Positions 10,780 through 27,935 of a stretch of DNA of 62,227 nt are shown here, one piece after another. The position numbers and the translations under genes were made by a program. This DNA is from Archaeoglobaceae archaeon (GTDB taxonomy: Archaea; Halobacteriota; Archaeoglobi; Archaeoglobales; Archaeoglobaceae). The notes under the pieces were generated by a model that did no database searches, had not been told where the DNA came from, and saw only the letters and a program-made list of their open reading frames with translations. How positions within the stretch are numbered: position 1 is the stretch's first letter; each line of letters starts with the position of its first letter. Location: the NCBI GenBank assembly GCA_027064525.1, contig JAMOPJ010000009.1, positions 1-62,227 of the forward strand, written 5' to 3'.

Positions 10780-11615
10780 AGCTTCACCTCCTTTAAGCTG
10801 AGCCTGAGGGGAAGGAAGATCGCGAGGAATATGATGAGAAGTAAGAGTGAAGCTCCCCAAGCTATCTCATGGTAGTTTTCATACGGCTGTTGAACGAGAT
10901 CGTATATCAGCAGAGGTATCGCCCCGACGGGTCTGTCTATTCCATTGAAATATGTTCTCGTAGCTCCTCCTGCTGTGAAGAGCAATGGAGCGGTTTCGCC
11001 AGCAACTTTCGCAATTCCTATTAGAACTCCAGTCAGAATACCCTTCCTCGCCAATCCTATCAAAACCCTGAAGACCACGTTGAATCTGGTTAAGCCTAAG
11101 GCAAATGCTCCCTCTCTATACTTCTCCGGAACACCTCTGAGCGCTTCTTCAGTATAGACCGCAACGTAGGGCATCATGACTATGGCCAAAGCGAGCGCAC
11201 CGGCTAAGGCGGAGTAGCTACCCATGGGAACGACCAATATCTGCATGACGAAGAGACCGACCAGTATGGTAGGAAACTCCATCATGATCATGAGCAATGT
11301 CCTCGTAGCTTTGCCGAGCATGCTGTTCGGGTATTCCGCAGCGTAAATCCCGGTCAGTATTGCTATTGGCAATCCGAGCAATGAAGCTAAGAATGTGAGG
11401 ACGAAGGTTCCAACTATCGCCGGACCTATTCCACCCAATCCGTCGTCGGGAGGAGCCAAAGTTCCGATTATGAAATCCCAACCACCTCTCAGTATAACGG
11501 GCAACCCCTCTACGGCAACACTGAATATTATGTGGAATAGGGGTAGAATCGTCAGAAAGGTCAAAATCGTTATTCCGGCAAGGAACAGCCTTTCCTTAAC
11601 CTTTCTAACGAGCAT
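10776..11615 (-). CDS. pstA: Phosphate ABC transporter permease PstA
   Basis: A 279-residue inner-membrane permease with six predicted transmembrane helices and the cytoplasmic EAA-type loop ([19 protein letters not shown]) that docks PstB. Pairs with PstC to form the channel. Start overlaps pstC by 11 nt; stop overlaps pstB. Confidence 0.94.
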
Positions 11616-12510
11616 GCTTGAACCTCCCCAAATACATCAGTCCAGCCAAGTTTACAGCCAAACCTATTATGAACAAGGACAGTCCGGCTGCGAAGAGAGC
11701 TGGAACCATGTATCCGTATATGAAAGCATTTCCGAACTGATTCGCTATGAGCGAGGATATCGTATAGCCGGGAGCGAATAGGCTCGGGTGGATGTTGAAG
11801 ACGTTTCCGACTACCAAGCTCACCGCTACCGTTTCTCCTATAGCCCTACCGAACGCTAACAAGATTCCTGCTACGATCGCTGGCTTTATGTAGCCGAGCA
11901 GAACTTTTGTAGCCTCGTATCTCGTCGCTCCCAACGCGTAAATTCCCTCTCTATAGATGTATGGAATGGATCTGTAGGCTTCTCTTATTATTGCGGAGGC
12001 GAATGGTGTGACCATTATTCCCAAGAGAACCCCTGCCGAGAGGTAGCTGTAGCCAGTGGACGGTTCGAAGGAGAATAGGGGTATGAAAGACAGGTGCTCA
12101 TAGAGAGGCATCATCACGAACCTCTTCAGTATTGGAACCAAGACGAACGCTCCCCATATTCCGTAGATTATCGTGGGTAAACCAGCCATAACGTCCGTAG
12201 CTACTATAAGAGGCTCTTTCAGCTTCTTTGGTGCGTAATCGATCACGAATACGGCGAAGCTTATCGAGAGCGGTAGAGCGATCAAAACTGCGAGGACTGA
12301 AGTGTAGACGCTACCGTATATCGCCGCTAAAACTCCGTAAAACTCCTTCTCAGGCTCTTCCGATGCTTTCCATACATTCGTCGTATATATCGCCAATCCT
12401 TCTCTTTCAAAAATGGGAAGAGAAGATGTAAAGTATACTATCAGCATCAAGATGAAAAGACCGAATACGAGACCGCAGAACGGAGCTAAAAAAATTTTAA
12501 ACCTGTCCAT
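11605..12510 (-). CDS. pstC: Phosphate ABC transporter permease PstC
   Basis: A 301-residue permease with six transmembrane helices and the EAA-type loop around IREAYRSIPYIYREGIYALG. The large extracytoplasmic loop between helices 1 and 2 is typical of PstC. It starts 3 nt after the pstS stop. PstC and PstA form the heterodimeric translocation path for phosphate delivered by PstS. Confidence 0.94.
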   Translation of the reverse strand: MDRFKIFLAPFCGLVFGLFILMLIVYFTSSLPIFEREGLAIYTTNVWKASEEPEKEFYGVLAAIYGSVYTSVLAVLIALPLSISFAVFVIDYAPKKLKEPLIVATDVMAGLPTIIYGIWGAFVLVPILKRFVMMPLYEHLSFIPLFSFEPSTGYSYLSAGVLLGIMVTPFASAIIREAYRSIPYIYREGIYALGATRYEATKVLLGYIKPAIVAGILLAFGRAIGETVAVSLVVGNVFNIHPSLFAPGYTISSLIANQFGNAFIYGYMVPALFAAGLSLFIIGLAVNLAGLMYLGRFKHAR

Positions 12511-12513
12511 TCT

Positions 12514-13596
12514 TTACCATCCCACCTCCTCAAGCAATTTTTGGGTTAGTTCACTCGGCAGACCGACATAGCCGGCTGCTATGTATTCCGAATTCTGTCC
12601 GTCGGTCAGTATCCATTTCACGAAGTTTCTTATTGCTCTTTCCTTTGCCTTGTCTTGGTAGTGCTCCCAAACTATTATGTGGCTAACGGCAACGATGGGA
12701 TAAGAATCCTTGCCCGGAGCGTTGAGCAAGTTCTCTATCTTCTCCTTGTATCCCTCTTTTGGAGAGGGGAATTTCATAGATACCTCCGCTATCGCAGCTT
12801 TTATCGTCGTGTCGTTCGGCTTGACGAAGTATCCGTCCCTGTTCTCCAAAGCCACAATCGGCAGATTCTCCTTGATTGCGTATGCGAGTTCGGTGTATCC
12901 TATCGAGTAGGGGTTATTCTTTATCGCCGCAACTACGCCCGGATTTCCTTTTCCACCTACGCCCCTTCCCAACTTATCTACCGGCCATTCGACGACCTTG
13001 CCAGAACCGACCATCTCTTTCCACTCGTCGCTAACCAAGCATAGATAGGTCGTGAATATCTTGGTCGTTCCGCTCGAATCGCTCCTGTGAACAACTATTA
13101 TCTCCTTATGAGGAAGATCCAAATTTGGATTCAGATTCTTTATCGCCGGATCGTCCCAATACCGAATCTTTCCCATGAATATTCCCGCTAATGTTTTTCC
13201 ATCGAGCCTGAGCTCCTTGATACCGGGAACGTTATACGAAACGACAACAGCTCCTACGATCATCGGGAACTGGAGTGGTTGCCCCTTCTGTTCGAGCTTC
13301 TTCCAAAGGGCTTCTTTTATCGGAGGATCGCTACAGGCGAAATCCACGAGCCCCTTCTCAAAATCTGCCTGACCGCCACCACTGCCCTTTCCAGTGTATT
13401 CGATCACAACGTTTGTATTCAGCTTCATGTATGCATCGATCCACTTCTCAAGTTGCGGTTGCGGAAAGGTGGCTCCACTTCCGATGAGAGTTACCTTCTG
13501 CGAAGTCGTTTCGCCAGATGTTGGCTTTCCCTGCTGTGCACAGCCAGCCAACGCGAGACTGAGCACGAGCAGCAGAACGATCGAGACTTTTTTCAT
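12514..13596 (-). CDS. pstS: Phosphate-binding lipoprotein PstS
   Basis: A 360-residue extracellular phosphate-binding protein. The N-terminus is a lipoprotein signal with lipobox LALAGC (Cys about 19). Phosphate ligands typical of PstS are seen in GSGATFPQPQ, GSGGGQADF and HRSDSSGTTKIFT. It delivers phosphate to PstCA. First gene of the leftward pstSCAB-phoU-abrB/phoU operon; the upstream divergent region carries palindromes that may be its control sites. Confidence 0.95.
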   Translation of the reverse strand: MKKVSIVLLLVLSLALAGCAQQGKPTSGETTSQKVTLIGSGATFPQPQLEKWIDAYMKLNTNVVIEYTGKGSGGGQADFEKGLVDFACSDPPIKEALWKKLEQKGQPLQFPMIVGAVVVSYNVPGIKELRLDGKTLAGIFMGKIRYWDDPAIKNLNPNLDLPHKEIIVVHRSDSSGTTKIFTTYLCLVSDEWKEMVGSGKVVEWPVDKLGRGVGGKGNPGVVAAIKNNPYSIGYTELAYAIKENLPIVALENRDGYFVKPNDTTIKAAIAEVSMKFPSPKEGYKEKIENLLNAPGKDSYPIVAVSHIIVWEHYQDKAKERAIRNFVKWILTDGQNSEYIAAGYVGLPSELTQKLLEEVGW

Positions 13597-13639
13597 GTTT
13601 ACGAATCGGGTAGGATTGAATATATGCTTTACCTACATA

Positions 13640-13668
13640 ATCTATAGAATATATAGATCGATATCGAT
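13640..13668. promoter_or_regulatory. Palindromic candidate operators between pstS and hisH
   Basis: Two adjacent symmetric sites lie in the 129-nt divergent region: ATCTATA-GAATA-TATAGAT (13640-13658, perfect 7-bp arms) and ATCGATATCGAT (13657-13668, perfect 12-bp palindrome). AT-rich TATA-like sequence for pstS overlaps the first. They could bind the AbrB-PhoU protein or another phosphate regulator; that link is inference. Confidence 0.45.
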
Positions 13669-13725
13669 GATGTATATTGGAGTATCTCGAACATTTTTTA
13701 AGGATACTGCCCGAAATATCAGATC

Positions 13726-14319
13726 GTGATAGCGATAATCGATTACGGTGTTGGAAACATAAGGAGCATTCACAAGGCGATAGAGTTCGTTGGAGGAAGG
13801 GCTGTCGTAACGAAGGACATCGAGATAATCAGAAATGCGGACGGTATAGTTTTACCCGGTGTAGGAGCCTTCAAGCCGGCAATGGAGAATTTGAAGCCCT
13901 ACATGGACATAATTCTGAACACAGATGTTCCGTTGCTTGGGATCTGCTTGGGGATGCAGCTCTTCGCAACCGAGAGCGAGGAAAGAGGGTTGCACAGGGG
14001 TTTGAACATAATACCAGGAAGGGTAGTGAGGTTTCCGAAGACTGTGGGCAAGATCCCCCATATGGGCTGGAATCAGATCGAGATCGTGAGGGATCACGAG
14101 GTGCTGGATGGGGTTGAGAACGGAAGCTATGTCTACTTCGTCCACTCCTATCACATGCAGACTTCAGATGAGTTTGTTCTCACAAAGACCGAATACGGAA
14201 TGGAGTTCGTCTCTGGAGTTGCGAGAGACAATGTCGTCGGATTTCAATTCCATCCTGAGAAGAGCGGGAAGGTAGGACTGAGAATCATAGAGAACTTCGT
14301 GAAGATGTGTAAGCGTTAG
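13726..14319 (+). CDS. hisH: Imidazole glycerol phosphate synthase glutaminase subunit HisH
   Basis: A 197-residue class I glutamine amidotransferase supplying ammonia to HisF in histidine synthesis. It opens with IAIIDYGVGNIRSI, carries the nucleophile in GICLGMQLF, and the His/Glu pair in FQFHPEKSG. The start is GTG at 13726. HisF is not in the window. It converges on the PUA-domain gene with a 4-nt overlap of the stops. Confidence 0.95.
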   Translation: MIAIIDYGVGNIRSIHKAIEFVGGRAVVTKDIEIIRNADGIVLPGVGAFKPAMENLKPYMDIILNTDVPLLGICLGMQLFATESEERGLHRGLNIIPGRVVRFPKTVGKIPHMGWNQIEIVRDHEVLDGVENGSYVYFVHSYHMQTSDEFVLTKTEYGMEFVSGVARDNVVGFQFHPEKSGKVGLRIIENFVKMCKR

Positions 14320-14864
14320 TAGGCATCGTAAGTCTTCTCTTTCCTGAGGTATTCTCCCCGATCGACCAGATTCTCTACAACTACCCTACCCTTCGCCACC
14401 TCCTTCATCCTCTCAGCATCGAACCTCGCCCTCCCGATCCCCAAGATGTCCCCTTTGGTGTTGCAGACGAAGACTATGTCGTTCTCCTTTACATCTTTAG
14501 TGGCGTCTATTACAGATTCGGCGAAGATGTCCCTTCCGTATAGGAATAGCATCTCTCCCTTCTCATTCACGAAGACCTTCTTCTTATTCTTCTTAACGAG
14601 GTAGAATGCCCCCTCCAAGCTGAACCTGAACCTCCTGCTTCCCACTTCTCCCACCTTAAGCCCGGCGTGAACGTAATTTAACTTGTAGAGCTCCAGGAAC
14701 TTGGCAAGATCTTTGGAGATAGCGTAAGCTTCCCTAATGGTTTTTCCACCTATATGAGATTCCAAAACGAACAGTTCGTTATCCTTTAGGAAATCGATCG
14801 ATCCAAAGGCTCTCAAGGCTGAGGTTATGACTTTCAGTTCCTTCTTTCTCGGTCTTCTAAGCAT
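14316..14864 (-). CDS. PUA-domain RNA-binding protein, Nip7-like
   Basis: A 182-residue protein with an N-terminal alpha/beta pre-PUA domain and a C-terminal PUA domain (about residues 100-178, KVFVNEKGEMLFLYGRDIFAESV through GIGRARFD). PUA domains bind structured RNA. The architecture and length resemble archaeal Nip7-type ribosome biogenesis proteins, but I cannot separate that from other PUA families by eye. Overlaps the 3' end of the upstream gene by 31 nt, suggesting coupling. Confidence 0.75.
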   Translation of the reverse strand: MLRRPRKKELKVITSALRAFGSIDFLKDNELFVLESHIGGKTIREAYAISKDLAKFLELYKLNYVHAGLKVGEVGSRRFRFSLEGAFYLVKKNKKKVFVNEKGEMLFLYGRDIFAESVIDATKDVKENDIVFVCNTKGDILGIGRARFDAERMKEVAKGRVVVENLVDRGEYLRKEKTYDAY

Positions 14865-15253
14865 ATTCCAGCGTAACCGAGTATCTTCTTTATAACGTTT
14901 CGATAATCATAATCTATTCTGAAGCTCTCCACCGTATTTATCATAACGTTCTTTCCAACGACATTCTCGTCCTCAAGATCTGCTGGCAGAACGACCTCTC
15001 CGTTCGGAGAGAACTCATATCCCTCCATGTTTTCCTCCAGACCGACAATCTTAAACGATCTCTTGAAGAAATACGGATAAGGCCTCTCATCGAAAAACCT
15101 GAGCTTTGCGTAGGTTTCACTTGCGATTATGGATGTGTTAACCTCCAAAGCCTTTGCGTTGATACCTATTTCCTTCTTACTCAGCTCGTAGCTGAATCCA
15201 CCGATCTTGCTGAGATAGATATCCGAAATGACCTCCATCGGATACGCAAACAT
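14834..15253 (-). CDS. Conserved-looking hypothetical protein
   Basis: About 139 residues, mixed alpha/beta, no membrane segment, no motif that I recognise. The frame is open four codons upstream to a TTG at 15265, but the ATG at 15253 (MFAYPMEVISD) is the more likely start. It overlaps the downstream PUA gene, so the two are probably co-expressed. Confidence 0.6.
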   Translation of the reverse strand: MFAYPMEVISDIYLSKIGGFSYELSKKEIGINAKALEVNTSIIASETYAKLRFFDERPYPYFFKRSFKIVGLEENMEGYEFSPNGEVVLPADLEDENVVGKNVMINTVESFRIDYDYRNVIKKILGYAGICLEDRERRN

Positions 15254-15378
15254 CAATATGAACAATAAATCGTTACAATATATCCTTTTTGGAAAAACGT
15301 TTTATAGATCTTCATTCCGGCAAAAATCGGCTCAGCGATCAGAATAATTATTATGAAGCTCATACAGAAGAATAAAAA

Positions 15379-16563
15379 CTACAAAACTTTAAGAATAGCC
15401 TCAACACTTGGCTCCACCTCTATGGGCTTCCCGCAAGCTCTGAGCACTGCTTCAGGATCTTTGAGCAGATGACCGGTGGTTATGCAGACAACTGTCTCGT
15501 CCCTCTCAATTTCTCCGTTTTCTGCAAGCTTCCTCAATCCTGCTATAGAAGCTGCTGAGGCAGGCTCGACTCCTATTCCCTCCTTCGATGCCAAGTCCTT
15601 CTGAGCTTTGGTTATATCCTCGTCGCTCACTTGAACTGCTGTCCCCTTCGATTCGTATATGGCCCTCAAAGCTTTCCTCGCATTCACTGGCTGACCGATC
15701 CTTATGGCTGTTGCTATCGTTTCGGGATTTAGAACGGGTTCTATGTCGTCCTTTTTCTCTTTAACCGCTTTGTATATTGGATTAGCTCCCTCAGCCTGCA
15801 CTCCTATCATCTTTGGTAGAGAATCGATGAGTCCAAAGCGTTTGAGCTCCTTGAATCCCTTCCAGATCGCGGATATGTTCCCGGCGTTTCCTACTGGTAA
15901 GACCACCTTATCTGGAACGAATCCCAACTCATCTACTATCTCATAGGCTATGGTCTTCTGCCCCTCCAACCTGAAGGGATTGACGGAGTTGAGTAGATAG
16001 AATCCTTGCATCGCACATATCTGCCTGACCAAAGCCAAAGCCTGATCGAAGTTTCCCTTTATCCCTATCACCTTCGCCCCGTGCATGAGAGCTTGAGCGA
16101 CCTTTCCTAAAGCCACTTTTCCAGCGGGCAAGAGCACGTAAGCCATCAATCCAGCCTTTGCAGCATACATCGCCATCGATGCTGATGTGTTGCCGGTCGA
16201 TGCGCAGGCTACAGCACTCTTACCAAGCTCTATTGCTTTCGTAACTCCGACCGTCATTCCCCTATCTTTGAAAGAGCCTGATGGATTCGCACCTTCATGC
16301 TTGACGAAAACCTTACAACCGACCTCTTTGCCAATCCTATCACACTCATATAGAGGGGTTCCACCTTCCTTGAGTGATATTGGCTCGATCTTGACTGGCA
16401 AAAGGCATCCATACTTCCAAACCCTTAACTCCTTCCCATCAAGCCTGAAGTCGATCTCAGTATCATCGATTCTGACCTCCAAAAGCCCACCACACTCGCA
16501 CGTGTAAACATCCTCCCTTTCGTATTCCCTTCCGCATTCGATGCAGACTAAGGAGTATTCCAT
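15379..16563 (-). CDS. thrC: Threonine synthase
   Basis: A 394-residue PLP enzyme converting O-phosphohomoserine to threonine. It starts with an N-terminal zinc ribbon (CIECGREYEREDVYTCECGG), then the PLP lysine in NPSGSFKDRGM, the substrate/cofactor Ser-Thr-Gly-Asn in ASTGNTSASMA, and the glycine-rich phosphate loop in LPVGNAGNISAIWKG. The frame extends upstream, but ATG 16563 matches where the zinc ribbon begins. Divergent from the beta-lactamase-fold gene. Confidence 0.93.
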   Translation of the reverse strand: MEYSLVCIECGREYEREDVYTCECGGLLEVRIDDTEIDFRLDGKELRVWKYGCLLPVKIEPISLKEGGTPLYECDRIGKEVGCKVFVKHEGANPSGSFKDRGMTVGVTKAIELGKSAVACASTGNTSASMAMYAAKAGLMAYVLLPAGKVALGKVAQALMHGAKVIGIKGNFDQALALVRQICAMQGFYLLNSVNPFRLEGQKTIAYEIVDELGFVPDKVVLPVGNAGNISAIWKGFKELKRFGLIDSLPKMIGVQAEGANPIYKAVKEKKDDIEPVLNPETIATAIRIGQPVNARKALRAIYESKGTAVQVSDEDITKAQKDLASKEGIGVEPASAASIAGLRKLAENGEIERDETVVCITTGHLLKDPEAVLRACGKPIEVEPSVEAILKVL

Positions 16564-23082: not shown

Positions 23083-24000
23083 CTAATGCTCGTGGAGCTC
23101 TCTAATATCTGAGCTGAACGATATGTATGTTCTTTCCGTGATGTTGTAGATCGGTATCTTTGCATAGGTGTGACAACCAATACATGCTTCGTTCGAACCC
23201 ATCATAAGGGTATCGTTTTCAGCCCACTCTATAAACTTCTTATGAGCTGAGAAGTTGCCTATATCCGGATGACACTGAACGCAGGTGACGTTTCTGCTCA
23301 TTCCCGGATGACAAAATGTGCAGTTGAAGTTGTGATATGGCGACATACTGAGTTCCGTTGCTACGTCTTGATGACATTCGGTGCAGTTCTCGCTGACTAT
23401 TCTTACCACAGCAATCGCGAACACGCTAAAAGATTCAGTTTCTGCGACGTAATAGTAGCCGACGTTATCTTCTCCGAGCATTTCAGTTTTTAACTTTATC
23501 CAGCCGTTGTGGAACTTTAGCATGACAACCTTTTTTGGATCGTATCTCTTCGCTTTGAGAAAGTCTTTTGGAACGTGGAAGTATATTAGTCCTGAAGGTT
23601 CCAATATCCTTCCAGTTTCAACGTCTTTGAACACTATCTCAACTTCTGATAGGATGTCATACTCCTCATTTGGGATGAGCGGAGTTATGATTTTAGATAC
23701 GTTTACTATGACTTTCATCTTTTGAGAAAGTTTAATCTCTATCGCCAGCAGACCTAATTCTTTCGATTTTTCGGGAGGTAGCTTGACCTTAACTGGAGTG
23801 TGCTCTGGAACTTCGATAACCTCTGAAAATACGGGTATAGCTTCATATTTTATCTGCTTGATTGCTTTTGGTTTTGATGGTGCTACTTGTCCTTTCAGAA
23901 TTACGAGTGCAAGGTTTGGAAGTATAATCAGTCCGACTATAATTGCGGGAATCGTTAGTTTTAAGAGTAAAGACAAAGCCAAATGTCTTGTAATTCTCAT
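23083..24000 (-). CDS. Exported tetraheme cytochrome fused to a PGF-pre-PGF domain
   Basis: About 305 residues. A signal/anchor helix (residues 8-36) is followed by a beta-rich region ending in VPKDF...KFHNGWIKLKTE...YYYVAETESFSVFAI, the hallmark of the archaeal PGF-pre-PGF surface-protein domain. The C-terminal 95 residues carry four CxxCH sites: CTECH, CTFCH, CVQCH, CIGCH. The heme part matches the neighbouring cytochrome (both have CxxCHxDVxxELSxSxxH and SNEACIxCHT). It lacks the long tail of the neighbour. The SD-like GGTGAT favours ATG 24000 over upstream starts. A surface-bound electron-transfer protein, possibly a base or cap of a cytochrome filament (inference). Confidence 0.85.
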   Translation of the reverse strand: MRITRHLALSLLLKLTIPAIIVGLIILPNLALVILKGQVAPSKPKAIKQIKYEAIPVFSEVIEVPEHTPVKVKLPPEKSKELGLLAIEIKLSQKMKVIVNVSKIITPLIPNEEYDILSEVEIVFKDVETGRILEPSGLIYFHVPKDFLKAKRYDPKKVVMLKFHNGWIKLKTEMLGEDNVGYYYVAETESFSVFAIAVVRIVSENCTECHQDVATELSMSPYHNFNCTFCHPGMSRNVTCVQCHPDIGNFSAHKKFIEWAENDTLMMGSNEACIGCHTYAKIPIYNITERTYISFSSDIRELHEH

Positions 24001-24169
24001 GATCATCACCATTACCTAACTCTACTATTAGTTAGGGATAACAAAAATATAATTTTTTCGTTTGAACTTTGAATTAGACTAGTATTTTACCATAACTAAT
24101 TCACACAATAAAAAAAATTAAATTTAAATTTATTAATTTTATTTAAAATTTAAAAATAGTAAAAAATAT

Positions 24170-24961
24170 TTAGGATGTGTTGTAGCTCACACCGGGAACG
24201 TTGCCAGGCCACGTGATGTTGTTCAAGTTAGTGGCACCGTATCCAGTGGTGTTACCCCAGACGATATCCCAAGCGGTTCCGTTAACACTCCAGTTGGTAA
24301 TCGTCCAGTTGTGCGGTCCGTATGAAGTAGTTATGCTATTCTTGTCGATACCAATATCAAACTCTAAGCTTCTCGCATGGGTCCAATTGATCTTCACAGC
24401 AACGTGTGTATGGCATGCAATACATGCCTCATTCGAATCCTGCAAAGTTGTGTCCTCTATAGCTTTAGCGACAAATGCGTTGTGTGCGGCATACATACCG
24501 TTGAATGTCGCGTTAGAGTAGTTGTATGGTGACGACACACCCATCATGCTCACATTAAATCCACCTGCGTAGTAACCCGGTGCCCAAGTTGCCTCGCTGG
24601 CGTTCGCCTGGTGGCAGAGCATACATGCAACTACACTTGCAGCGTGAGCTTCCTTACCTGGAGTATATGCGGTGTAGCTACCATTAACGCTTGCATACTG
24701 GATGTTCAGGTTAGATCTATGGCAAGCTGCACAGTCCTCTCTATCTGCTTTGGTCTTATCTCCCCAGTGGATGTGGAAGGTGCTCTGGCTCAGCTCCTCG
24801 AAGACATCGGCATGACATTTCTCACACGGAACATCGTTACCGGTTCCGCTCAGGTTGTACCAGTAGTGCTGGCCAGCGAACAGTGAGACAGTGTTCGGTA
24901 GAACTACCAAGCCCGTCGCTGTGAGTATCACCGCCAGCAACAAAGCTTTGCTTAGGTTCAT
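24170..24961 (-). CDS. Tetraheme c-type cytochrome, nanowire-subunit type
   Basis: A 263-residue exported protein. Signal peptide (LLLAVILTATGLVVL) ends near residue 30; the mature part begins close to FAGQHYWYNLSG. Four heme sites: CEKCH, CAACH, CMLCH and CIACH, plus extra His for axial ligands. More than ten N-x-S/T sites (for example NASE, NATF, NWTH, NITW) fit a heavily glycosylated surface protein. Size, heme number and layout agree with the tetraheme subunit of extracellular cytochrome filaments described for Archaeoglobus veneficus; identity here is by pattern only. ATG 24961 follows GGGGGTGG. Promoter box TTTATAAA near 25000. Confidence 0.85.
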   Translation of the reverse strand: MNLSKALLLAVILTATGLVVLPNTVSLFAGQHYWYNLSGTGNDVPCEKCHADVFEELSQSTFHIHWGDKTKADREDCAACHRSNLNIQYASVNGSYTAYTPGKEAHAASVVACMLCHQANASEATWAPGYYAGGFNVSMMGVSSPYNYSNATFNGMYAAHNAFVAKAIEDTTLQDSNEACIACHTHVAVKINWTHARSLEFDIGIDKNSITTSYGPHNWTITNWSVNGTAWDIVWGNTTGYGATNLNNITWPGNVPGVSYNTS

Positions 24962-25230: not shown

Positions 25231-26259
25231 ATGAAGCTGAATAGGAGAAACTTTCTCAAGCTTGTAGCGGCGATGGGAGCTACGGCCTTCGTGACCAACT
25301 ACAAAGCTGAGATCGTCAAAGCTCTTGAAGAGGTCAAGGACTACTGGCACATCTGCTGGCTGAACGGAGCTGCCTGCACGGGTTGCACGATCTCATTCGC
25401 TCAAGCGGCAGATCCGGACATTGTCGAAATTCTGACGAGCATAACCGTTGGAAATTCAAGACTCCCAATTGCTCTGCCAGATTACATGGAGACTATTCAT
25501 CCTGCTTCCGGATGGCTCGCAGAGCATCTGAAAGAGAAGTGGAAGAACGGAGCGAAGGGTAGGAGGATTCTAATAGTCGAAGGTGCAATTCAGAAAGAAG
25601 GTTACTGCGTTATCGGTGGTAAAGATTTTAGAGAACATGTTAAGGAGGCAATAGATTACGCGGACTACATAATAGCGTTCGGTGCCTGTGCATGCTTTGG
25701 TGGCATTCCTTCATCCAACCCGAATCCGAGCGGAGCGATGGGATTGCAGGAGTTTTTGAAAGAAATTGGAAGAGCCGATCTTGCAAGCAAAGTAATAAAC
25801 ATTCCATGCTGTCCTGGACATCCCGATCACCTTGTAATAACGTTGGCATCAGTCATGCTTGGAATGAAGCTCGAACTCGACAATTACAACAGGCCAAAGC
25901 TGTTCTTCGGCAAAAACATGCACCTCGAAATCTGTCCGTATAGGTCATATTACGACATGGGAATTTTCACAACCAAGCCGGGAGAAGAAGGATGCAGATA
26001 CAAGTTCGGATGCAAGGGGCCAGATGTTTATACCGATTGTGCACTTAGGAAGTGGAACAACCACGTCAGCTACTGCGTGCAGGTTGGAGCTCCATGCATA
26101 GGTTGTGCCGAGCCCGGATTTCCAGACAGATTTCTGCCGTTCTATGAGCCTGTAACCAACAGAAGGCCATTCTTCAACATAGATCCAAACTACATTTGGG
26201 TTGGAGGGGCGGTTTTAGCTGGAGCTACGGCGTATAAGGTTAAGAAGAAGGAGGAGTGA
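25231..26259 (+). CDS. [NiFe] hydrogenase small subunit, Tat-exported and anchored
   Basis: A 342-residue electron-transfer subunit of a group 1 membrane-bound hydrogenase. It starts with a Tat signal (LNRRNFLKL). Proximal cluster ligands: GAACTGCTISF, GACACFGGI, PCCPGHP. Medial and distal cluster ligands: HLEICPYRSYYD, GCRYKFGCKG, DCALRKWN, CIGCAEPGFPD. A C-terminal hydrophobic helix with basic end (VGGAVLAGATAYKVKKK) anchors it on the outer face. Works with the large subunit that starts 2 nt after its stop. Archaeal Vho/Vht-type enzymes are the closest class by pattern. Confidence 0.93.
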   Translation: MKLNRRNFLKLVAAMGATAFVTNYKAEIVKALEEVKDYWHICWLNGAACTGCTISFAQAADPDIVEILTSITVGNSRLPIALPDYMETIHPASGWLAEHLKEKWKNGAKGRRILIVEGAIQKEGYCVIGGKDFREHVKEAIDYADYIIAFGACACFGGIPSSNPNPSGAMGLQEFLKEIGRADLASKVINIPCCPGHPDHLVITLASVMLGMKLELDNYNRPKLFFGKNMHLEICPYRSYYDMGIFTTKPGEEGCRYKFGCKGPDVYTDCALRKWNNHVSYCVQVGAPCIGCAEPGFPDRFLPFYEPVTNRRPFFNIDPNYIWVGGAVLAGATAYKVKKKEE

Positions 26260-26261
26260 TT

Positions 26262-27935
26262 ATGAAGGTCGTAGTAGATCCGGTCACGAGGATTGAGGGT
26301 CATCTGAGAATAGAGATGAATCTCAAAGAGCTATCCACAGACACCGGCAAATGGTTCATCGTTGGAGAAGCGAAGAGTGCCGGAATGATGTTCAGAGGTT
26401 TCGAGATATTTCTGAAGGGCAAGGATCCGAGGGATGCTTTCTTCTTCACCCAGAGAATATGTGGTGTTTGCCCGGCAGCGCATGCAGAGGCTTCGAATCA
26501 GGCTTTGGACATAGCTTTTGATGCGGTTCCAGTTCCTCCTGCCGCTACTCTCATCAGGAACATAATTCAGTGTGCATACTACATCTACGACCACATGATC
26601 CACACATACTTGCTTGTAGGGCCAGAGCTCGGAATCCTCTGCAAATATCCGCCCATGATCCCTCCGGCTTTGGGTAAGGAGGGCATAACGAAGCTTGGAT
26701 TGGGAAGTAGCTATGCAAAATGTATAGAGATGCAGAGGAAAGCCAATGAGATTATTGCCCTTTGGGGAGGTAAGTTCCCGCACCATGCAAGCGGATATCC
26801 GGGAGGTGTGACCGTTAAGCCTACTGCCGAGAGAATAGCTGGAACGGTGGCAAGGGCGGTTGAGATATGGGAGTTCGTTGCCAACACGATGATAAGAGAC
26901 ATACAAGCTATAATTCAGGCAAGCGAAACCGTAGGTGAGAAAGTTAGCGAAATCTTGGGTGTTAACATAAGGGGATTGGAGGACATAGGCGTTGGGACTG
27001 GAAACTTCCTGAGCTATGGAATGTTGCCAGATCCCGAAAATTACGACGACTGGCTCAAGATCGCTTATGGCGAGAAGGGAAGGCGAAAATCTGCAGTATT
27101 CCACGCGGGAGCTTGGGATGGCAACTTCAAGGACTTCGAGCTTAGCAAGATTCAGGAGTTCGTAAAATATGCATGGTATTCTGACGAATACACTGGAAGG
27201 AAGCCAAACGAGGAGGAGACAGTTGTGGAGATGGGCAAGCCCGGAGCATACTCTTGGATAAAGGCTCCGAGATACGACGGTAAGGTTTACGAGGTCGGGC
27301 CGTTGGCTAGGATGGTAAACACCTTTGGCCTCACTTGGAGAATTCCGAGGGTTCACCCCATAACTGGCGAGGATTTGGGAGATTTCGTCTATAAAGTCAG
27401 AAATCCGAAAGGTTCCGTGCTCGACAGAGTCGTTGCGAGAGTGGCGAACGCTTTGGTTTGTGCGAACAAGCTAATAGAATTTGCGAAGATGCTTGCCGAA
27501 TACAAGGACACCTCGATATGTAACTACAAAGAAGTTCCGGAAAAGGGTGAGGGATTTGGCCTCTATGAAGCTCCAAGAGGAGCACTGTTGCACTACCTAA
27601 AGATAAACAACAAGGTCATCGAGAGGTATCAGTGCGTGGTTCCGAGCACTTGGAATCTGAGCCCGAGAGATGATATGGGTCAGCCCGGGCCTGTGGAGAC
27701 ATCGCTGCAGTGTGGAACGACTTGGCTTCCGACGATGGATGTTCCAAGCGTTTGTAGTGCGATATGGGGTGAAGATTACGGAAATCTGCTAAAGAGCGCT
27801 TTGGCTCCGCTTGGATTGGCTGAGCTGAACATGGAGCCCGTAAACGGCCAGAAGTTCAACACCACGATCGCTCTACTCGTCGTCAGGAGCTTCGATCCAT
27901 GCATAGCTTGCGCCGTTCACCTGATAAGCAAATGA
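26262..27935 (+). CDS. [NiFe] hydrogenase large (catalytic) subunit
   Basis: A 557-residue subunit carrying the Ni-Fe site. N-terminal motif RIEGHLRIE and RICGVCPAAHA give the first cysteine pair; the C-terminal DPCIACAVH gives the second. The residues after the final His are only LISK, a very short tail compared with the roughly 15-residue peptide normally removed by the maturation protease. It oxidises H2 on the outer face. No cytochrome b (VhoC-type) or maturation protease gene follows; instead the 61-bp element copy B lies 16 nt downstream. Chosen start ATG 26262 over GTG 26256. Confidence 0.93.
   Translation: MKVVVDPVTRIEGHLRIEMNLKELSTDTGKWFIVGEAKSAGMMFRGFEIFLKGKDPRDAFFFTQRICGVCPAAHAEASNQALDIAFDAVPVPPAATLIRNIIQCAYYIYDHMIHTYLLVGPELGILCKYPPMIPPALGKEGITKLGLGSSYAKCIEMQRKANEIIALWGGKFPHHASGYPGGVTVKPTAERIAGTVARAVEIWEFVANTMIRDIQAIIQASETVGEKVSEILGVNIRGLEDIGVGTGNFLSYGMLPDPENYDDWLKIAYGEKGRRKSAVFHAGAWDGNFKDFELSKIQEFVKYAWYSDEYTGRKPNEEETVVEMGKPGAYSWIKAPRYDGKVYEVGPLARMVNTFGLTWRIPRVHPITGEDLGDFVYKVRNPKGSVLDRVVARVANALVCANKLIEFAKMLAEYKDTSICNYKEVPEKGEGFGLYEAPRGALLHYLKINNKVIERYQCVVPSTWNLSPRDDMGQPGPVETSLQCGTTWLPTMDVPSVCSAIWGEDYGNLLKSALAPLGLAELNMEPVNGQKFNTTIALLVVRSFDPCIACAVHLISK

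Follow-up and report, generated by a model that had tools for sequence, protein, structure and literature searches.

A predicted membrane-tethered paralog of the extracellular cytochrome nanowire subunit is encoded beside the nanowire gene in a genus of Archaeoglobaceae

The closest described system to the locus studied here is the extracellular cytochrome nanowire (ECN) of Archaeoglobus veneficus, whose subunit AvECN (UniProt F2KMU8, PDB 8e5g) receives the distal histidine of three of its four hemes from another subunit (PMC12203936). From ANME archaea, multiheme cytochromes are known that carry PGF or S-layer domains and are fixed at the cell surface (PMC5244752, PMC9012536), and small anchored multiheme cytochromes have been proposed as relays (PMC9012536). 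For Geobacter, the attachment of nanowires and the entry of electrons into them are described as unresolved, the anchoring of cytochrome nanowires being called an open question and its discussion speculative (PMC12307469). The gene pair analysed in the present study offers a concrete protein with which to address both matters, namely an apparently membrane-tied paralog of the wire subunit that is found almost only alongside the wire.

The window, by which we mean the whole stretch of DNA analysed, comprises 62,227 nucleotides of an Archaeoglobaceae contig. Its ORF 24170-24961 on the reverse strand (or to 24970; 263-266 aa) encodes four CxxCH motifs and 14 N-glycosylation sequons, and over residues 4-259 the full-length product matches PDB 8e5g with an E value of 6.4e-70 (phmmer). 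On this sequence evidence we identify it as an extracellular cytochrome nanowire subunit and the full-length ortholog of AvECN, predicted to form filaments, in agreement with the initial annotation, which had described a nanowire-type tetraheme cytochrome rich in glycosylation sites. The end of its signal peptide and the presumed mature N-terminus lie at 24866..24898 (reverse strand), where the cleavage point is inferred to fall between PNTVS and LFAGQH. Downstream, after an AT-rich gap of 157 bases (24013..24169, reverse strand), follows a second gene at 23083..24012 on the same strand, whose product of 309 aa is referred to below as the fusion. A scan for sigma-70-type promoters and terminators scored no better than shuffles.

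The fusion consists of an N-terminal membrane helix (residues 1-41, 23890..24012), a PGF-pre-PGF domain as spacer (residues 55-205, 23398..23850) and a tetraheme ECN-like core (residues 205-309, 23086..23400), all on the reverse strand. The heme motifs of the core, likewise read from the reverse strand, are CTECH (residues 210-214, 23371..23385), CTFCH (residues 231-235, 23308..23322), which is followed by a conserved PGMSR, CVQCH (residues 244-248, 23269..23283) and CIGCH (residues 277-281, 23170..23184). Residues 99-201 match the PGF_pre_PGF model TIGR04213 with an E value of 6.4e-15 and 55.5 bits against a cut-off of 28. AlphaFold2 predicts a single unbroken N-terminal helix over residues 2-41 and a confident PGF fold over residues 55-205, with a pLDDT of about 90 over most of that domain; in the first run, based on an alignment of five orthologs, the PGF domain was good and the core unfolded. 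A model of the core from an 85-row alignment reached a pLDDT of 73.6 and a best Foldseek E value of 1.1 against the PDB, both from a heme-free prediction. Heme-free structure models of multiheme proteins are often poor, and we take this one to speak neither for nor against a fold shared with 8e5g.

In carrying a PGF-pre-PGF domain, the fusion resembles TIGR04213 surface proteins and the ANME proteins that join multiheme cytochromes to PGF-CTERM or S-layer domains. It differs from them in that the domain is internal, preceding a tetraheme core like that of a filament subunit, and in that a family-model search of the fusion found no match to the PGF-CTERM sorting signal, the heme core itself being the C-terminus. 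Since PGF-CTERM is absent and relatives carry other spacers, the PGF-pre-PGF domain is a spacer and not itself the anchor. Among fusion orthologs the core is the most conserved part, at 77-83% identity as against 41-59% for the spacer. As a separate observation, a structural comparison of the model of this domain (window 23398-23850) gave as its best neighbour 4dlo (E 2.3e-4, probability 1.0), a GAIN domain as found in adhesion GPCRs. The final strand of the PGF-pre-PGF domain, SFSVFAIAV, is reminiscent of how GAIN/ZU5 domains end; a distant relation between PGF-pre-PGF and GAIN domains is possible as far as the model goes.

In order to compare the core with ECN we used a profile built from 69 ECNs in which every CxxCH was masked, because this motif is common to all multiheme cytochromes. 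The core of the fusion scored 35.9 bits and its orthologs 38-40, whereas 12 other multiheme cytochromes scored -0.2 or lower or went unreported, and 50 shuffles of the sequence with the motifs kept in place reached a maximum of 2.0 bits. The difference between 35.9 bits and at most 2.0 among controls and shuffles leads us to conclude that, at the level of sequence, the core shares ancestry with ECN beyond the heme motifs. It retains all four CxxCH motifs of AvECN together with the heme-1 segment CHxDV..EL and the heme-4 segment AH..FI..A...SNEACI.CHT; the latter, which in the alignment reads AHKKFIEWAE..L..SNEACIGCHT, is the stretch closest to ECN. Relative to ECN it is shorter by roughly 100 loop residues and by the C-terminal tail, and two histidines are gone: that of the EAH loop, which lies between the second and third hemes, and that of the N-terminal GQH. 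The sequence alignment shows the latter to be kept in ECN and missing from the wider group of related proteins described below. ECN has four conserved histidines outside the heme motifs (in GQH, at about 62, in EAH at 109 and in AAH at 163), two of which have counterparts in the fusion, H227 and H257; the roles of distal histidines in 8e5g were assigned from one sentence of a review (PMC12203936) and from conservation. The claim of the initial annotation that both genes share the same four-heme core is therefore to be narrowed: the cores are related, but with loops and two histidines gone they are not the same.

This kinship also bears on the proposal that the fusion might be a membrane quinol dehydrogenase like NrfH or CymA of the NapC/NirT family, which combine an N-terminal helix with a tetraheme domain and one CxxCHxxM motif. 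The architecture is similar, CHPGM is invariant after heme 2 of the fusion, and the NrfH model gives a weak match (E 3.5e-4). However, this match amounts to 20.7 bits against the cut-off of 134 for TIGR03153, the Pfam model NapC/NirT (PF03264) gives an E value of 0.18, and with the masked profile the core groups with ECN. Moreover, a folded spacer of 150 residues would put the hemes far from quinol in the membrane, and related proteins from another family (f7, described below) do not contain CHPGM. An NrfH-like identity, for which the family models are not reached, was thus downgraded, and we regard it as very unlikely.

The N-terminal hydrophobic segment of the fusion is homologous to that of AvECN, where the corresponding helix serves as signal peptide. 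We use the term head for an anchored ECN-like protein, of which the fusion is one. The residue at the presumed cleavage site was taken as the fifth from the proline of LP, counting the proline as one (P-N-T-V-S). A small residue (Ser, Ala or Thr) occupies this position in 65/65 ECNs and in 2/17 heads, one of these two being a broken gene (p 1.4e-14, uncorrected for the kinship of the sequences). Similarly, almost every aligned ECN has a GxH after the signal segment, whereas none of the 17 heads has one. Judging from these residues, ECN is probably cut at that site and the head probably remains uncleaved and anchored in the membrane. The N-terminal anchor proposed in the initial annotation is accordingly retained as a prediction, although it had been regarded as an addition to the protein; the helix was not added but inherited in common with the ECN signal peptide, and it is the cleavage site that has apparently been lost. 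Compared with AvECN, the fusion thus lacks the small residue at the presumed cleavage site, GQH, the EAH loop and the C-terminal tail, and has a PGF-pre-PGF domain inserted between helix and core.

Within the Archaeoglobales the full-length fusion is restricted to the genus of the window, where it occurs in 5/5 genomes, always directly downstream of ECN, in the same orientation and separated by 124-181 bases. A single scan of genome contigs returned three relatives, all from this genus. In four of the five genomes the pair has as divergent neighbour a NiFe hydrogenase, found in the window at 25231-27935, and the fusion could be conceived as a tethered, cytochrome c3-like acceptor for that enzyme, which is HysAB-like and carries a Tat signal for export. 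In the remaining genome (G036), however, the pair is intact among different neighbours with the hydrogenase on a separate contig, and the enzyme is common across the order, in genera without ECN or head as well. With pair and hydrogenase separable and the enzyme widespread irrespective of ECN, this partnership was downgraded as well, and we consider it very unlikely.

Heads of other kinds occur more widely. In one genome (G016) a related head, its gene cut by the contig end, has a spacer of only about 40 aa and no PGF domain. Another family of the phylum, f7, yielded heads in 11/51 genomes; their scores stand well apart from those of ECN, and their spacers either measure 20-60 aa or consist of charged repeats over about 190 aa. 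Heads thus exchange their spacers freely, be it a PGF domain, a short segment or charged repeats, and the head itself is kept. The f7 heads resemble the fusion in their uncleaved-looking helix without GxH, their variable spacer, their ECN-like core and their linkage to ECN clusters; they differ in having no PGF domain, in the loss of heme 1 and the gain of an extra heme, as in the 5-heme ECNs of f7, and in the signal peptidase gene that often lies alongside. In four genomes (G144, G172, G303 and G300, the last with a broken head gene) the head is followed by a signal peptidase, then by an ECN or ECN-like gene and a larger multiheme gene; the head adjoins a signal peptidase in G247 and G196 too, which makes six f7 genomes, and in 4/11 an ECN is also present in the arrangement. 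Signal peptidase I genes were observed near ECN clusters of two families (L177:3214-3984, L167:2677-3423, L168:8545-9288, L082:10311-10994(-), L078:2185-2868 and L231:3737-4417(-)), belonging to TIGR02228 in those tested; a signal peptidase beside large multiheme cytochromes has already been noted in ANME (PMC9012536).

Across the phylum sample, heads are present in 15/295 genomes, 14 of which also carry ECN (Fisher 1.4e-11). The initial annotation had asked for a check of co-occurrence; it is seen both in this sample and in the adjacency of fusion and ECN throughout the genus, and the opposite pattern, with the fusion mostly in genomes devoid of the filament gene, is clearly not what was found. 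As for the origin of the heads, a broad tree that included N-terminal columns and gappy rows grouped all heads together (SH-aLRT 92), whereas a core-only tree did not bring the two families' heads together, and in the AU test a single clade received a p-AU of 0.255, which neither establishes nor rejects it. The heads may be either one old paralog or the same arrangement invented twice.

Taken together, our best reading is that the fusion functions within the ECN system of the window's genus. We propose that it is a membrane-tethered ECN paralog that physically contacts the ECN filament as a docking or electron-entry unit, a chain of claims that, as a whole, we hold at just under even. In this mechanism the helix would act as a signal anchor and remain embedded in the membrane, with the PGF-pre-PGF domain as a stalk that keeps the heme core at a distance from it, within the S-layer or close by. 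The core would dock through its conserved heme-4 face onto a terminal ECN subunit and pass electrons between the filament and cytochromes of the envelope. Histidines with which ECN subunits may ligate one another's hemes are missing from the fusion; it could therefore bind a neighbour on just a single side, as would fit the base of a filament. The proposal is favoured by the masked kinship to ECN, the adjacency in 5/5 genomes including the one with different neighbours, the co-occurrence of heads with ECN, the clustering of f7 heads with signal peptidase and ECN genes, the lost cleavage-site residue, the absence of GxH from all 17 heads and the maintenance of the core on a fast-changing spacer. 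That the fusion is a true base initiating assembly we consider less probable than this docking role, below an even chance.

The same data would also fit a protein that moves electrons across the gap from membrane to S-layer, to ECN or to other cytochromes, by transient contact and without forming part of the filament. A spacer of variable length is what one would expect of an arm reaching across, and with only two invariant non-motif histidines in the core, cross-ligation of the ECN type may stay incomplete. Nevertheless, heads adjoin the filament gene in two lineages and are kin to the filament subunit rather than to relay cytochromes, both of which point to direct contact; we judge a purely transient relay rather unlikely. 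A bolder version of the docking proposal, which we offer as a speculation more probably wrong than right by a good distance, is that archaeal nanowires have a dedicated starter subunit: an uncleaved ECN paralog without the histidines for the hemes of a previous subunit could only be the first unit, in f7 a signal peptidase of its own would free the filament subunits and not the starter, and the stalks would differ by lineage, the one here being PGF-pre-PGF.

Against the docking proposal stands A. veneficus itself (G020; AvECN at L050:1492-2277), the source of the solved AvECN filaments, in whose genome we found no head, as was the case in most ECN-bearing Archaeoglobales. The idea of the initial annotation that the fusion is a filament base or cap therefore stands as regards its relation to the filament subunit and its pairing with the ECN gene, and is weakened by filaments made without it and by a second protein that follows ECN more closely. 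This is a small pentaheme cytochrome (L183:6144-6797, reverse strand; in the genome of the window G000:C18:96982-97515, reverse strand). Among Archaeoglobales it is present in 23/24 ECN-bearing and in 0/33 ECN-free genomes, and in the phylum sample in 41/47 ECN genomes (Fisher 4e-40); it was also seen in three genomes of that sample without a strong ECN match. In A. veneficus only an ECN paralog separates it from AvECN. It may be, then, that this single-copy protein with its amphipathic C-terminal tail forms the junction between filament and cell, the fusion being a lineage-specific accessory, an explanation that we hold at somewhat less than even. On the other hand, the pentaheme is not linked to the ECN-fusion pair in the genus of the window and shows no kinship with ECN beyond CxxCH (its masked score being negative or unreported), so that it could act anywhere from the membrane to the wire. 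As a single-copy gene with the above distribution, it is a better candidate than the fusion for a partner that accompanies ECN universally; the fusion, for its part, may represent an improvement confined to its lineage. Our confidences in the several readings add up to more than one because the roles of fusion and pentaheme need not exclude each other.

As for the tethered paralog itself, neither an ECN paralog tethered to the membrane and paired with ECN nor a comparable PGF-pre-PGF/tetraheme protein was described in the literature searched, whose scope did not extend to the original ECN paper; within the same scope this agrees with the initial annotation, which knew of no such partner. The parts list of the archaeal ECN system would now comprise ECN, an anchored head, the single-copy pentaheme, a small lipoprotein-like protein and often a signal peptidase, and could guide reconstitution.

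The lipoprotein-like protein of about 150 residues (GC..., '.LPAIKVVFMHY'; L227:8536-8982(-), L229:7184-7606(-), L082:8007-8459(-)), for which no family match was found, adjoins the pentaheme or sits between ECN genes in several genera. The genome of the window contains a second cytochrome locus at L067:326-9912 (G000:C32:68326-77912), which contains a CcmF/NrfE-like protein, a cytochrome b-like protein, a 9-heme cytochrome and a protein that is CcmE-like by sequence, and then two 8/9-heme proteins having an ECN-like N-terminal half and another ECN paralog. Finally, in one genome (G025) two giant cytochromes with 22 and 29 CxxCH motifs lie between ECN genes, at L078:5567-9526 and 10820-15799.
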